In this document: positions 20,924 through 27,076 of the stretch, piece by piece
How the letters are laid out: each line of letters begins with the position of its first letter
Position numbering within the stretch: position 1 is the first letter of the stretch
DNA from: Acidobacteriota bacterium
GTDB lineage: Bacteria > Acidobacteriota > Terriglobia > Bryobacterales > Bryobacteraceae
Assembly (NCBI GenBank): GCA_016201205.1
Contig: JACQDF010000198.1
Span: forward strand, 1 to 33,291
Length of the DNA: 33,291 bases
Direction: 5' to 3'
Program-made: the position numbers and the translations under genes
Notes under the pieces: model-generated
What the model was told of the DNA's origin: nothing
The model's input: the letters and a program-made list of their open reading frames with translations, nothing else
The model's database searches: none

Positions 20924-23900
20924 TCAAAACAGCACCTTCAGCCCAAACTGCACCTGCCGAGCCGCATTGGACGTCCCCGTGATCTGCCCGAACTGCACCG
21001 CGCTCAGATTCTGGTTTGGCTCCCCAAAGCTCGGCGTGTTGGTCAGATTGAAGGACTCAGCCCGGAACTGAAGCGACAGGCCCTCCCTCAGGCTGAAGTT
21101 CTTGAACAGCGAGTAGTCGAGATTCTTCAGTCCCGGAGCCCGCGCATCGGGCAGCGTCCGGCCCAAACTGCCGAAGGTGAACGGGGCAGGCAGCGCGAAC
21201 GCCGTCTTGTCGAAGTACTGCGTCAGCCGGCTCTCCACCGGCCCCTCGAGCTTCGCGCTCTTCCCGGTGCTGTTCGGACGAAGCACGTTGCCGCCGGAGT
21301 TCGATGTGTTGGTCGTGGTCAGCGCCAGAGGCGGGCCCTTCTGGAACGCAACGATGCCGTTCATCTGCCAGCCGCCCACAAAGGCATCCACGATCCGGTT
21401 CCACCCCGAGCCGAACCTACGCCCGCGCCCGAATGGCAGCTCGTAGACGAAGCTGGCCACGAAGCGCTGCGAAATATCGTTTGCGGAAATCGAGCGCTCG
21501 GCGCGCCGGTTGTTGATGTTTTGAACGTTCGCGTTGCGCCCCAGGTTCGAGATGATCGAGAAGTCGTCGATCAGCTTGGCGTCGGTGTACGAAACCAGCA
21601 GGCCCAACCCCGAGCTGAAGCGCTTCTCCACCTTGATTTGCAGGGAGTGATAGATGGAAGAGGCGCCCGTCCAGTACAAGGGGTTCACCGTGGTGAATTG
21701 CGGGAAGGACCGCAGCAGGAAACTCTGCGGCACCGTGGCCGTGGCCAGCGGTCCGCTCGGGATGATCCCGAAGAAAGGATTCCGCACTGGCTGCTGCAAC
21801 TGGCTGCCGAGCGCCAATTGCTGGATCGTCAACTGGTTGAGATTGGCGGTGCCCTCCCCGGTCTGCGTCAGGTGCAACCCGTGGCTGCCGACGTAGCCCG
21901 CCTCCACCAGCAGGTTCCCGCGCATTTGCTGCTGGATGTTCAAGCTCCAGTTCTCACTGTACGGCACCACGCTGTCACCCTTCAGGCTGGCGCTGATCGT
22001 CGAGCCGGCGGCCGTCAACAGTCCCTGCGTATTGCCCACCACCGGAGTCAAGCCGTCCGGGAACGGATTGCGCAGATAATTCGTGGGCGTGACTCCGTTC
22101 TGGCTGCCGATGAACTGCGTGTCGCTGCGGTACCCGAAGTTTCCCACCGTGCCTCCCGCGGCTCGCAGCGACGGCGCGTAGAAGATGCCGCCCCCGCCGC
22201 GGATCACCGTGTTCCGGAACGCCTGATAAGCAAAACCGAACCGCGGCGCAAAGTTGTTCCTGTCCGCCTCAAACTGCTGCGCGCTGACCCCGCTCACCCC
22301 GGCAAACACCAACCCGCCTTTCAGGTTCGGCGACCCCGCGGGACCGGCCAGCGGCGATGCTGCCAGCGGGTCAAAGACGTTGATCCGGTTGTACCGTTCA
22401 TGGCGCGGAATCTCGAGCTCATACCGCAGGCCAAGATTGAGCGTCAGCTTATTGCTCACCTTCCAGTCGTCGGCCACGTACCAGGCCCAGTACGTGCTCT
22501 GCGTGGATACGCATTTGAAGCACTTGGTCATGACGCCGCCTCCCAGGCCGAGCAGCATCGACGCCATGCCGTCGCCCGCCGTGGCGGTCGCCTGGTTGGG
22601 GTTTGGCCCCTGCGTCAAGCTTCGGTCGAAATTGAAGTTCCCCACCGCATCGGTGACCTCGCTGTTGTTCACACGCACCAGCCGCGCTTCGAAACCGAAC
22701 TTCAGAAACTGCCGCGTCAGAACCTTGCTGTTATTCAGGCTCCAGTTGTGCGTCTCAAACGCGTTGCGCCGGAAGAACGAGCTGGCGCCGAGAGCAAGAT
22801 ACCCGGCCGGTGAGAACGTCGGGAAATAGATGCCGTCGGCGTTCGCCTTGATGTAGCCCGGCATGCCCAGTTGCGTCGGATCGAATCCGGCGCTGCGCGG
22901 GCTGAATTTCAGCAGCGTTCGCCCGAATCCGTATCGAAAATCGATCAGGAAGGTCGGCCGAAGATTGTGCGTGTAATCGAATGCCGCGTTGTTGGCGATC
23001 TGGGGCTGATAGGAGCCGCCTTGCGCCACGGCGATGTCGGCGGGAAAGCGGTTCTCCAACATCTGATTGAAATTGCGATGAGAAACGCGGATGAAGAACC
23101 GGTTGCGTTCGTTGATGTTCTCGTCGCCCTTGATGTCGAACTGGTTGCTGTCGGTGGGCAGCGTTCCCGGGAGTGCGAGGTTGTTGGCGCCGGTGAACCT
23201 GTCGCCTGTCCGGTTGGGTAGCGGGTAGTATTTCACGACGTTGCGCGCCACCGGGTCCATGCGGGACACCGGGATGAGGTTTGCCGGGAATGCCTGCCGC
23301 ACAAAGCCGCTGCCTGCCGCCGCGGTCGTTACCGGGTCGAAGATCACGATCTGCGCGCCGTTGGCGTTCAGCGTCTGGGAAAAGTCGCCCCCGCGCTGCA
23401 ATTCCGCGGGCACGGTTGTGGTGAGGTTGCCCTGCGAGCGTTCCTTCAGACCTTCGAAGGCGGCGAAAAAGAAAGTGCGGTTGCGCCCGTGATAGAGACG
23501 GGGAATCCAGACTGGCCCGCCGGCCGAGACGCCATACTGGTTCCGTTTGAAGTTCGCAAGCGGCAGCCCGCGCTGGTTGGCGAAGAAGCCGTTGGCGTCG
23601 AGCTTCGAATTGCGCACGAACTCGAACAGGCTCCCATGGAGCTGGTTCGTCCCCGACTTGAACACCAGATTGATGATGCCGCCGCTCGAACGGCCAAATT
23701 CGGCCGAGTAGCTGTTGGTCTGCACCTTGAATTCCTGCACCGAGTCCACCGAGGGGTAGACGGTGAAGCCCTGGATCGGGTTCACCAGCGGCGGGGAGGA
23801 TGGGATGCCGTCGGCCAGAATCTCGTTGGCGCCGGGCCGGCCTCCGTTGATGGAGATATTGGCTTGGTTGAACTGCGGCGCCACGTTGCCGATCACGCCC

Positions 23901-24373
23901 GGCGCCAGAAAGACCAGCGCATAGGGGTTGCGCTGGTTGAGCGGGAGATTGGTGATGCTGCGGTTTGCGATCACCTGACCGAGCGCCGCGCTCGAGGTTT
24001 CGAGCAACGGCGCCTCCGCGCGAATCTCCACCGTTTCGGTCACCGCGCCGATCTCCATCACGATCTCGATGCGCGCCGTCTGGTCCACCTGGAGCACGAT
24101 TCCGCTGCGATCCACTTTCTTGAATCCTGGCGATTCCACTACCACGGAATAAGGACCGGGAGGAAGGGAAGGCGCGAGAAATCTCCCGTCAGGACCTGTC
24201 TCCAGCCGGGTGGTGATATTCGTGGCTCTGTTGATCACCTGCACCCGCGAGCCGGAAATGACCGCGCCGCTCGAATCGCGCACACTTCCTTCGAGCGAGG
24301 CGGTGATCGTCTGCGCGGCGAGTGCGGGCGCAAAAATCAGAATTGCCGCAAGCGAGCACCTCATGGGACGCAT
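20924..24373 (-). CDS. TonB-dependent receptor, Oar-like, with carboxypeptidase-regulatory-like domain
   Basis: A 1,149-residue outer-membrane receptor. After a signal peptide (MRCSLAAILIFAPALAAQ) comes a carboxypeptidase-regulatory-like beta-sandwich (about 25-105, LEGSVRDSSGAVISGSRV), then the TonB plug (about 115-240, SITNLPLNQRNPYALVFLAPGV, FGRSSGGIINLVFKSGTNQLHG) and a large barrel. The end QVQFGLKVLF carries the C-terminal Phe signal. The start at 24373 is chosen because GGAGGG stands four bases upstream; ATGs at 24385 and 24364 fit less well. The architecture is typical of the many acidobacterial Oar-like receptors, which import oligosaccharides or other large ligands; substrate unknown. 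A CFKC motif lies in the barrel (22511-22522). It parallels the fragment at 1-216. Confidence 0.92.
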   Translation of the reverse strand: MRPMRCSLAAILIFAPALAAQTITASLEGSVRDSSGAVISGSRVQVINRATNITTRLETGPDGRFLAPSLPPGPYSVVVESPGFKKVDRSGIVLQVDQTARIEIVMEIGAVTETVEIRAEAPLLETSSAALGQVIANRSITNLPLNQRNPYALVFLAPGVIGNVAPQFNQANISINGGRPGANEILADGIPSSPPLVNPIQGFTVYPSVDSVQEFKVQTNSYSAEFGRSSGGIINLVFKSGTNQLHGSLFEFVRNSKLDANGFFANQRGLPLANFKRNQYGVSAGGPVWIPRLYHGRNRTFFFAAFEGLKERSQGNLTTTVPAELQRGGDFSQTLNANGAQIVIFDPVTTAAAGSGFVRQAFPANLIPVSRMDPVARNVVKYYPLPNRTGDRFTGANNLALPGTLPTDSNQFDIKGDENINERNRFFIRVSHRNFNQMLENRFPADIAVAQGGSYQPQIANNAAFDYTHNLRPTFLIDFRYGFGRTLLKFSPRSAGFDPTQLGMPGYIKANADGIYFPTFSPAGYLALGASSFFRRNAFETHNWSLNNSKVLTRQFLKFGFEARLVRVNNSEVTDAVGNFNFDRSLTQGPNPNQATATAGDGMASMLLGLGGGVMTKCFKCVSTQSTYWAWYVADDWKVSNKLTLNLGLRYELEIPRHERYNRINVFDPLAASPLAGPAGSPNLKGGLVFAGVSGVSAQQFEADRNNFAPRFGFAYQAFRNTVIRGGGGIFYAPSLRAAGGTVGNFGYRSDTQFIGSQNGVTPTNYLRNPFPDGLTPVVGNTQGLLTAAGSTISASLKGDSVVPYSENWSLNIQQQMRGNLLVEAGYVGSHGLHLTQTGEGTANLNQLTIQQLALGSQLQQPVRNPFFGIIPSGPLATATVPQSFLLRSFPQFTTVNPLYWTGASSIYHSLQIKVEKRFSSGLGLLVSYTDAKLIDDFSIISNLGRNANVQNINNRRAERSISANDISQRFVASFVYELPFGRGRRFGSGWNRIVDAFVGGWQMNGIVAFQKGPPLALTTTNTSNSGGNVLRPNSTGKSAKLEGPVESRLTQYFDKTAFALPAPFTFGSLGRTLPDARAPGLKNLDYSLFKNFSLREGLSLQFRAESFNLTNTPSFGEPNQNLSAVQFGQITGTSNAARQVQFGLKVLF

Positions 24374-24435
24374 TGGACCCTCCATGGTCCCCAATTCTAC
24401 CCTTCGATGAGCAGGCGTGGGGCGGAGCGCCGGCG

Positions 24436-25497
24436 CTATCGCCCGCCGGGCTTGTGTTGCAGCTCCACCGGAACCCGCTCGCGGTCGTGCCCTTCCACTT
24501 CGAGCGTCCAGGCCAAAGGCACTGTTTCCGGCGGATAGCACAGCCGGTCGTTGCAGGCCTGGTACTTCAGCGTCCCTTCGAGCTTCCATTCCCGGTTCGG
24601 CGAAAGGAGCGGCTTCACGTTCTTGTCCTCGCCTGCCGTCAGATCGCGCGTCAGCCGCAGCATGCCTTCATAGACCGGAACTTTCTCCTTGATCGCCTCG
24701 AGGTACAAAACCCGCGACCCGGGGTAGCTCACGGCGTGGGCGCGATAAGCGGGCGATTCCGCCATTTTCCAGTCCACCGCATGATAGCCCTCCACACCCG
24801 GCGCATACAGATGGAAGCCCTTGGGTATCTCGATTTCGACCGCCAGCAGGATGCGCTGTCCGGGCCGCACGATGGAGGTGCTGGCCGCCGTCACCAGCTT
24901 CACGTGCTTGGCCGCGGGCGCTGCTCGAGCCGCCGCCGGCGCCACCCCGTGCTCTTTCGCCAGCAGCCCCGCCAGCGTTTGCCGCTCCCGGTAATCCTCC
25001 TCGAAGTACTTGCTCTTCACCACGCCTTGCCCGCCGGCGACGATCGTCACGGGATGCGGGATGCCGTGGAAGGCACTGCTCGCAGGGACTGTTTCATTCA
25101 GCAGGCCGAACGCGAGGATCACCTTCGAGCCCGTGTCGCTCAACAGCGGATAGCGGATCTTGCGCCGCTCGGAAAAATTCTTGAGGATGGCTTCACTGTC
25201 GTAACTGACCGCTGCCAGCCCCAGCCCTTGCCGCCTCAGTTGGTCCAGGTTCTGATCCAGCTCGACGAGCTGGCTTTTGCAGTACGGTCACCAGTCCGCC
25301 GACCGGAAGAACACCAGCATCAATCCTTTCGGTCCTTTCAAAGACTCGAATGTCTGCTCGCGTCCGGTCTGATCCCGCAGGCTGAAGGCAGGCAGTTTGG
25401 CTCCGGCCTTGATTCCAGGATCGGCGGGAGTTTTCTGGGGGAGCGCCGGCCATGCGGACGCAAGACTGGCGTAAAGAAGCAACGCGATTCGCACCAC
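24436..25497 (-). CDS. Selenoprotein: exported redoxin (U-x-x-C) fused to DsbD-alpha-like domain
   Basis: One frame of 353 codons interrupted only by a TGA at 25290-25288. A signal peptide (RIALLLYASLASA) is followed by an AhpC/TSA redoxin (about 30-185: KAGAKLPAFSLRDQTG, GLMLVFFRSADW-TGA-PYCKSQL, AAVSYDSEAIL, YPLLSDTG). The UGA codes residue 70, where Cys homologues have W-C-P-Y-C, so it is read as selenocysteine (U70, C73). Residues about 215-353 are a DsbD-alpha-like domain ending in QACNDRLCYPPET, the C-x5-C disulfide pair of that fold. A perfect hairpin 21 nt after the UGA is the likely SECIS. Start is GTG at 25497 (second GTG at 25494), without a Shine-Dalgarno. It should reduce peroxides or protein disulfides in the periplasm. 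The alternative, a nonsense mutation, is unlikely because both halves remain fully conserved. Confidence 0.85.
25257..25273 (-). promoter_or_regulatory. Candidate bacterial SECIS hairpin
   Basis: In the mRNA, CCAGCUC-GUC-GAGCUGG forms a perfect 7-bp stem with a three-base loop that begins with G. The loop starts 22 nt after the UGA (21 nt between). Bacterial SECIS elements, as I recall, need a short apical loop with G at its first or second base, about 16-37 nt beyond the UGA, so this fits. SelB would bind it. It lies within the coding sequence and encodes QLVEL. Confidence 0.75.
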
Positions 25498-25531: not shown

Positions 25532-27076
25532 CTACGGAGTCTGATGAGAGGATTTCAGTCTTGCGAGCGCCTGTTCGGCTCTCTGAAAGAAACGGGTCCT
25601 TTCTTCCTCGGAGGGAAACAGCAAGGGAGCCGTGCGGTAGTAACCGATCTCATCCTGCCAGCGCCTGGCCAGCGCCTGACGCGCCTCCGGGAGCGCCGGC
25701 TCGCCGGTCCAACCCAGATAGACAGGGTTGGTGTGCGCCTTGAGCAGGCCGGCATCTGCTCTGGCGGCGAGCCACAGCGGACGCTGGGAGGGTATCTTCG
25801 CCGCGACCTCGGCTCCCTTCGAGGAAGCGAGCACACGGCCGTTGGCGACCAGTTCGACGCTGTCCAGGACGCGGTGGAATTTCGCTCTCGCCCGCGCCGT
25901 CCCCGCCTCCTGGTTCACGTCGATCTCGATCATCGGCCCATTCGTCACCATCCCCTCGCCGTTGCGAATCCCGCGCGCCCAGGCTTCGTAAGCCGACTCA
26001 CCGGCGTTCGCCTTGATCAGAAGGCGCTCCGGCCCCAGCAGCGGAATCCACCGTGACCATTGCTCGGCCCGCGTGGACCTGTTCAGCGAAACCGGAAAAT
26101 CACTGCCCGCCACGCCCGTCACCTTGAAGCCCGCGTTCAGCAATTCATACCACTGCTCGGTCCTCAGACTCCCGAACTGGAAGACTTCGACAAAGTCGAT
26201 CGACCCCAGGGCCACATCCATCAGCAGCGCCGAGTGCTTCGTCGAGCCGTCGAAGTGCGCATAGCCGACCGTGGCGCCCAGCTTGCGCCCCATCCCGAAC
26301 AGAACAAAAGGATAGGGATATGTTTCCGGGCCGTTGGCGTACATTGTCCCCAGGCTCAACGGCCGGATCAGCTCGCGGCCGCCCAGCAGGTTGACATGAC
26401 CGAAGAATTCCGATCGCGATTCGTGTCCCGGCCGAATCGAGCGGCCCGGGATTCGCGCCTCGGCTTTGGGCCCGAACCCGTACTGCGCCGCCGCGTCCAT
26501 CTGCCGCTGAAGCTGAAGGAAGTTGGCAACTGACAGATCCTCCGCGTCCATCCATTTCAGGAAAAGGGCGTCGTCCTCCGGCGCCCGCACCAGGTGAATG
26601 TGATCATCGCCGCTCAGCCACGAGGCGCTTTCAGCGCCGGCCCAGTTCTCCATCCGCAGCGTCACAGTCTCGGTCGCGCCCGCGTTCAGCTCGAATTCCA
26701 CCGAAACCGGTTTGAAAAACAGGCCCCGGTAGGCCTCGATACGGTACTTCCCGGCCGGCAGATCGAAGCCCGCGGCGCCCTTGAGCAGAAAGAAATGCGA
26801 GATGTTGTTGCAGGTGACTTCGAGCGTCGCCGGATCGTTGCTCCGCCGCCACAGCCGCTCCCGGTAGAACAAGTCAACGCGAAGCGGCAGCAGCGCGTCG
26901 ACCGGACTCAGCCGGAACGGCCGTCCGTCTTTGTAGAGATAGACGCGCGCCGGCATGCGCGGCTCGGTCTGAATCTCCAGCCGGGCCGCGATTTCGCGCA
27001 AGCCGGATTCGCGAAACTGCGCCCAGGCAAGCGCGACGAGAAAAGCGGGAACAAGAACGGTACGCGAGAGTCGCAT
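25532..27076 (-). CDS. CehA/McbA-like metallohydrolase, exported
   Basis: A 514-residue protein with a signal peptide (MRLSRTVLVPAFLVALAWAQ), an N-terminal beta-rich region (about 30-150, LPAGKYRIEAYRGLFFKPVSV) and a PHP-like catalytic region. The metal motif is WLSGDDHIHL (the HxH equivalent of WYRGDLHVH in CehA/McbA proteins); later landmarks are ATVGYAHFDG, VEVFQFG, KVTGVAGSDFP and GMVTNGPMIEI. CehA/McbA members include carbaryl hydrolase-like enzymes, but most are unassigned, and the substrate here is unknown. It lies 34 bases upstream of the selenoprotein gene on the same strand, so they may share a transcript; the functional link is unclear. It is divergent from the ABC operon across a 102-base gap. 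Confidence 0.82.
   Translation of the reverse strand: MRLSRTVLVPAFLVALAWAQFRESGLREIAARLEIQTEPRMPARVYLYKDGRPFRLSPVDALLPLRVDLFYRERLWRRSNDPATLEVTCNNISHFFLLKGAAGFDLPAGKYRIEAYRGLFFKPVSVEFELNAGATETVTLRMENWAGAESASWLSGDDHIHLVRAPEDDALFLKWMDAEDLSVANFLQLQRQMDAAAQYGFGPKAEARIPGRSIRPGHESRSEFFGHVNLLGGRELIRPLSLGTMYANGPETYPYPFVLFGMGRKLGATVGYAHFDGSTKHSALLMDVALGSIDFVEVFQFGSLRTEQWYELLNAGFKVTGVAGSDFPVSLNRSTRAEQWSRWIPLLGPERLLIKANAGESAYEAWARGIRNGEGMVTNGPMIEIDVNQEAGTARARAKFHRVLDSVELVANGRVLASSKGAEVAAKIPSQRPLWLAARADAGLLKAHTNPVYLGWTGEPALPEARQALARRWQDEIGYYRTAPLLFPSEEERTRFFQRAEQALARLKSSHQTP

Follow-up and report, generated by a model that had tools for sequence, protein, structure and literature searches.

Gene organization and the in-frame TGA

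The locus raises the question of whether a redoxin-like gene interrupted by a single TGA is a broken gene or encodes a selenoprotein and, if the latter, what its product might do. We analyzed a 33,291-nt stretch of JACQDF010000198.1, a contig of a soil-type acidobacterium (the stretch being the window), for which the initial annotation had proposed a frame open on both sides of one TGA, with this codon in place of the first Cys of a W-C-P-Y-C motif. Both proposals held. With TGA decoded, the minus strand has one frame of 353 residues, running from a GTG start at 25497 to a TAG stop at 24438-24436, which is open throughout and has exactly one TGA, at codon 70 (...FFRSADW-U-PYCKSQL...). The features of the gene are as follows.

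24436..25497, minus strand: very probable selenoprotein gene (redoxin plus DsbD_N), GTG start, TAG stop, 353 residues
24979..25410, minus strand: redoxin / AhpC-TSA domain, residues 30-173
25288..25290, minus strand: in-frame TGA, codon 70, the very probable Sec of W-U-P-Y-C; Cys codon or TGA in relatives
25279..25281, minus strand: Cys73, second residue of the UxxC pair, invariant in 68 rows
25257..25273, minus strand: SECIS-type hairpin, stem 25273-25267 / 25263-25257, loop GUC 25266-25264
24523..24879, minus strand: DsbD N-terminal (DsbD-alpha-like) domain, residues 207-325
24538..24555, minus strand: C315-NDRL-C320, Cys pair of DsbD_N, both Cys invariant in 68 rows

The presence of redoxin sequence in both halves, followed by a second domain, was also borne out by Pfam. 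The AhpC-TSA match covers residues 32-161 (E 9.6e-25) with the TGA inside it, the Redoxin match also spans the TGA, and the DsbD_N match (residues 207-325, E 3.3e-11) lies C-terminal to the redoxin part. PF00578 was matched by all 68 aligned rows and DsbD_N by 65 of them. No other Pfam domain was matched, and the membrane and C-terminal thioredoxin parts of DsbD are absent. Under translation table 11 the ORF is broken at the in-frame stop, in keeping with the expectation that automatic annotation would split the gene. The start codon was judged by eye only, as was a short apparent signal peptide in the first ~15 residues.

A gene for a CehA/McbA-type metallohydrolase (25532-27076, minus strand) ends 34 bp upstream on the same strand and is a possible operon partner. 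Just downstream lies a gene for a TonB-dependent-type outer-membrane beta-barrel (20924-24589, minus strand), whose longest-ORF start overlaps the selenoprotein gene.

Exchange of UGA and Cys at codon 70

We aligned homologous loci by tblastn, using a code in which TGA is read as Cys. Among 165 loci aligned across the site (a number that includes the window gene, L001, a duplicate, L112, the non-family loci L004 and L006, and possibly one organism counted twice, as contig and as genome), the codon 70 column is TGA, TGC or TGT in 164, and a Trp codon occurs in none. The one exception, ACC (Thr), comes from L004, a different peroxiredoxin with its own TGA at the TxxU position. The first alignment set accounts for 112 of 113 loci (46 TGA, 46 TGC and 20 TGT); from a second set of 53 loci 52 were aligned, all with one of these three codons. 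L003, L005 and L079 of the first set and L204 of the second gave no alignment across the site. Cys and UGA interchange at exactly residue 70, which was the comparison that the initial annotation had recommended. Decay around the UGA, which it had named as a refuting sign, is contradicted by the intact downstream frame and its invariant cysteines.

The genome also has a paralogue (L002, 46% identity), located on a different contig, whose sole TGA is at the same codon. Because the same codon is TGA in this paralogue and in dozens of relatives, the TGA is not a chance occurrence. For counting, L112 (a duplicate of L002), matches worse than E 1e-30, L003-L031 and identical 150-nt segments were dropped (161 segments kept, 148 distinct), which gave 85 distinct Sec-form segments with TGA at codon 70, the gene and its paralogue included, and 63 Cys forms. 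The locus scan used the pattern DWCP[YF]CK, which favors Cys forms, and therefore the Sec:Cys ratio of L032-L111 is meaningless.

On a quick LG+G4 tree of 115 near-full-length proteins (84 Sec and 31 Cys), in which some forks are open, a long-branch warning applies and the hairpin columns were kept in, Sec and Cys replace each other 11 times, and well-supported branches force at least 9 of these switches; the figure in shuffles is 27.5. Some more divergent homologues also have the UGA here, namely L202, L203, L190 and L191, of which two read W-U-Q-Y-C. An acidobacterial-type homologue was also seen in a record titled as a Bifidobacterium breve MAG (L078), which is probably mislabelled or mis-binned.

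A covarying SECIS-type hairpin

There is a covarying bacterial-type SECIS hairpin just downstream of the UGA, which goes beyond what the initial annotation had claimed. It begins 14 nt past the TGA and consists of a 7-bp stem and a 3-base loop (with the first base of the TGA as 0, bases 17-23 pair with 27-33 and the loop is 24-26), and its sequence codes for part of S-QLVEL-D. Watson-Crick pairs occupy 516 of 567 stem positions in 81 distinct 45-mers of the Sec form, as compared with 442±7 after permuting codons within column and amino acid; none of 5000 such shuffles reached the observed count. The 63 Cys forms have no excess (227 of 441, with 231 expected).

At pair 20:30 the 81 Sec forms have G-C in 54 cases, A-U in 24 and G-U in 3. 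On the tree there are 16 changes on each side of this pair and 17 in the pair as a whole. Of 11 independent row pairs, ~10.4 on average had the partner changed the same way and none had it changed the opposite way. Pair 17:33 gave 5 independent pairs, ~3.7 agreeing and 0 opposed, which are too few for significance. This pair and 23:27 are the weaker ones, kept in 70 and 46 of the 81 forms, respectively.

The core hairpin lies within the minimum-energy fold of 68 of the 85 Sec segments and of 4 of the 63 Cys forms; for the other 17 Sec segments, the minimum-energy fold of the 45-mer is without it. Compared with synonymous resampling, the free energy shows a moderate excess (mean z -1.0), with 37 of 81 Sec forms below -1. 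In the window, a stem of that length at about the same distance follows 5 of 854 TGA triplets; among 333 other codons of the gene, 2 are followed by one. A scan of the window against Rfam returned nothing at the gathering score.

The loop is GTC, GTG or GTT (GUN) in all 85 Sec segments. All 81 distinct Sec forms have Val78, as against 12 of 63 Cys forms. The peptide encoded across the stem is QLVEL or QLVQL in every one of the 85 Sec forms and in 4 of 31 near-full-length Cys forms (the 31 include L078, the record bearing another phylum's name). In the model bacterial SECIS, according to the available part of PMC8659212, G23 and U24 of the loop are not variable, and the GUN loop, together with Val78 and QLV(E/Q)L in the Sec forms, fits this invariability. 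The bulged U17 of that model, described in the same part, has no counterpart in the perfect stem found here. The hairpin also fits the small loop containing G that the accessible text of PMC1088965 gives for bacterial SECIS elements.

Selenocysteine machinery in the genome and across the class

The initial annotation had called for selA, selB, selC and selD to be sought in the same genome, and three of the four are there. The assembly (7.0 Mb, 94.3% complete) has a full-length selB (391.5 bits against a cut-off of 242), a tRNA-Sec gene (selC) with anticodon UCA on another contig (L007), and selD (366 bits), which carries its own UGA in the UASK site (L028:1450-2600) and, just downstream of it, a 7-bp stem with the loop GGU in the minimum-energy fold. 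selA was not found: a profile search of this 94.3%-complete assembly gave five weak matches, below the cut-off. The best two of the five, L023 and L024, were rejected as candidates; they match part of the SelA profile only and have, by eye, export-type leaders. We also examined 8 loci out of 11 matches to RF01852, and by ARAGORN only L007 is a tRNA-Sec, the remaining seven being tRNA-Ser (three), Gly, Cys, Leu and Trp, with a tRNA-Thr alongside in L011.

In all three same-genus genomes searched, selA was found right after a PIG-L gene, which itself has a peptidase S9 gene before it (Pfam names taken from one of the three loci), and these two genes have 75-84% identity among the three loci. Their best matches in the assembly studied here reach only 33% and 41%. 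Because the two genes preceding selA in the relatives are also missing, the data suggest that the selA-containing block is absent most simply owing to a gap in the assembly; alternatively, there may have been a real loss of the block.

The same genome has a peroxiredoxin gene (L004:1390-1953) with TGA at the TxxU position, which is a further likely selenoprotein gene; its minimum-energy fold differs, and a 7-bp stem with the loop GGC is seen by eye only. Beside the paralogue, a MerA-like reductase gene (L002:2796-3947) ends in LSCCAA-TGA; its frame continues beyond this stop for another eight codons.

We searched 299 genomes of the acidobacterial class, 78 of which had a classified homologue, taking as present a tRNA-Sec with E below 1e-10 and a SelA with E below 1e-70; a pass with a stricter filter, which loses weak matches, was also run. 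The UGA form occurs in at least 68 of the 299 genomes, that of the window being one of them. All 68 have selA or tRNA-Sec (59 both, 5 tRNA only and 4 selA only), the no-SelA status of G102, G126, G218, G289 and G297 following from absence among the matches listed. Among 10 Cys-only genomes, 7 have neither selA nor tRNA-Sec and 3 have both. In this table of 68 plus 10 genomes, from which those with partial or distant homologues only (e.g. G036 and G173) are omitted, the UGA form is associated with the machinery at a Fisher p of 4.5e-8, uncorrected for relatedness.

Decoding of the UGA

From the anatomy of the gene, the covariation and the machinery, we infer selenium insertion, and we are highly confident that the gene makes a selenoprotein with Sec at UGA codon 70. 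The selenoprotein interpretation of the initial annotation is thus upheld by the Sec/Cys interchange, by selB, selC and selD, and by the covarying hairpin downstream. That the TGA is a nonsense mutation or a base-call error would agree with the ORF being split under table 11, but it is hardly credible in view of the same-codon TGA in 85 distinct Sec-form segments from independent assemblies, the covarying hairpin, and the intact downstream frame with its invariant cysteines. Decoding of the TGA in some other way, by near-cognate readthrough or genome-wide reassignment, is very improbable: the only point for it is the selA not found in the assembly, whereas selB, tRNA-Sec and selD are present, the hairpin covaries in UGA forms only, and the alternatives at the site in the 165 loci are Cys codons, with no Trp and with one Thr, in the different peroxiredoxin. 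In the selenoprotein reading, the ribosome would read UGA codon 70 as Sec under the direction of the hairpin 14 nt downstream, which would show its GU-containing loop to SelB.

Active site and proposed role

An AlphaFold2 model built with 68 relatives had a mean pLDDT of 93.6 and a pTM of 0.87. In the PDB it is closest to the AhpE and Bcp peroxiredoxins, with a target-normalised TM near 0.8, and ResA is among the matches listed. In sequence alignments, U70 corresponds to the first Cys of the ResA active site (best match 3c71, a CPHC variant), and Cys73 to the Cys of TxxC in peroxiredoxins, presumably the peroxidatic one. The Thr position of TxxC is U or C in the redoxin-DsbD family. The column of AhpE Arg116 holds the nearly invariant Pro149, presumably the equivalent of the thioredoxin cis-Pro; it is Ala in 4xih, an R116A mutant. 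Because of the alignments with the ResA Cys and with TxxC, and of the Pro in the AhpE Arg116 column, the site reads as a thioredoxin-type U-x-x-C plus Pro on a peroxiredoxin scaffold. Assignment as a classical peroxiredoxin (P-x-x-x-T-x-x-C/U plus a catalytic Arg) was rejected, with U70 at the Thr position and Pro149 at the Arg position.

On this sequence evidence we somewhat favor a role of the product as a thiol-disulfide oxidoreductase, and domain identity makes an exported, periplasmic protein most likely. The Sec70-x-x-Cys73 pair would reduce disulfides or other oxidised partners, and the C-x4-C pair of DsbD_N would take electrons from a membrane DsbD, so that the path, as domain identity suggests it, would run from DsbD to the DsbD_N pair, to U70/C73 and to the oxidised substrate. 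In favor of such a role, another gene of the genome (616 residues) combines DsbD_N and DsbD_TM with a thioredoxin-type domain; against DsbD as the partner, the product of this gene scores below the NCBIfam DsbD cut-off (148.7 of 330 bits).

The product might instead be a selenoprotein acting as a peroxidase, with Cys73 in the place of the peroxidatic Cys and Sec70 resolving or attacking peroxide. The closest solved relatives are indeed the AhpE and Bcp peroxiredoxins, and Cys73 aligns with the Cys presumed to be peroxidatic; however, the Thr of TxxC is replaced by U or C, the active-site Arg of AhpE is replaced by the nearly invariant Pro, and the peroxiredoxin whose TxxU position is TGA (L004) has a gene of its own in the same genome. 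We regard peroxidase activity as rather unlikely and prefer the oxidoreductase role.

Relation to known selenoproteins

A 2026 table of 119 selenoprotein families includes PF00578 and PF08534 proteins with UxxC as well as TsoB, a rhodanese/DsbD fusion (PMC13188914); a redoxin-DsbD fusion is not among the 119 families by that description. UxxC Prx-like thiol:disulfide oxidoreductase selenoproteins are already known (PMC13188914 and the available portions of PMC1794560 and PMC2398784). The protein described here shares with them PF00578, UxxC replacing TxxC, and Cys homologues; as compared by description, it is set apart by the fused DsbD_N with its invariant second Cys pair and by QLV(E/Q)L, which the hairpin sequence encodes in all 85 Sec forms sampled. 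The Redoxin family selenoprotein (PF08534, HEU0032618.1, PMC13188914), also compared by description, likewise has a redoxin domain and UxxC and may belong to the same family. TsoB (NF045694) is likewise a selenoprotein with a DsbD-type part, but is listed with UxxxxU, two Sec and a rhodanese partner, and NF045694 gave no match to the redoxin-DsbD protein at E 0.01. With this protein as the query, none of the NCBIfam models scored above its cut-off.

ResA/TlpA-type oxidoreductases have a C-x-x-C that aligns with U70-x-x-C73 (3c71, CPHC variant); here, in contrast, Sec stands for the first Cys, DsbD_N is fused, and the best structural matches are peroxiredoxins. E. coli-type DsbD shares the DsbD_N domain with its Cys pair, but the membrane and C-terminal thioredoxin parts are not found here. 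Other selenoprotein fusions, one of them with an unidentified CxxC domain, appear in the accessible part of PMC2398784, and the available part of the deep-Sep paper of 2025 gives one acidobacterium with three known selenoprotein genes (PMC12013277). Among the titles and abstract openings listed by searches of the open-licence literature, none describes a redoxin-DsbD selenoprotein.

The chances appear evenly balanced that these proteins form an unlisted subfamily, widespread in one acidobacterial class, that would act as a self-contained periplasmic selenium relay, a UxxC redoxin being fed by its fused DsbD-alpha; the coding SECIS would dictate QLV(E/Q)L in all sampled Sec forms, and the Cys lineages (at least 9 Sec/Cys changes) would mostly be without the peptide. 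With these findings, the probable use of Sec in Acidobacteriota reaches a redoxin-DsbD fusion, apparently exported, whose frame the standard code splits in two. As Sec and Cys forms alternate often, the family offers a direct view of a coding SECIS constraining both RNA and peptide and, if the above is true, would serve as a natural experiment on what bacterial SECIS elements cost the protein. It also provides testable Sec/Cys pairs for asking what benefit selenium brings. One Cys form (L071:4127), sister to the Sec form L194, keeps the complete hairpin sequence and is possibly a fossil SECIS.
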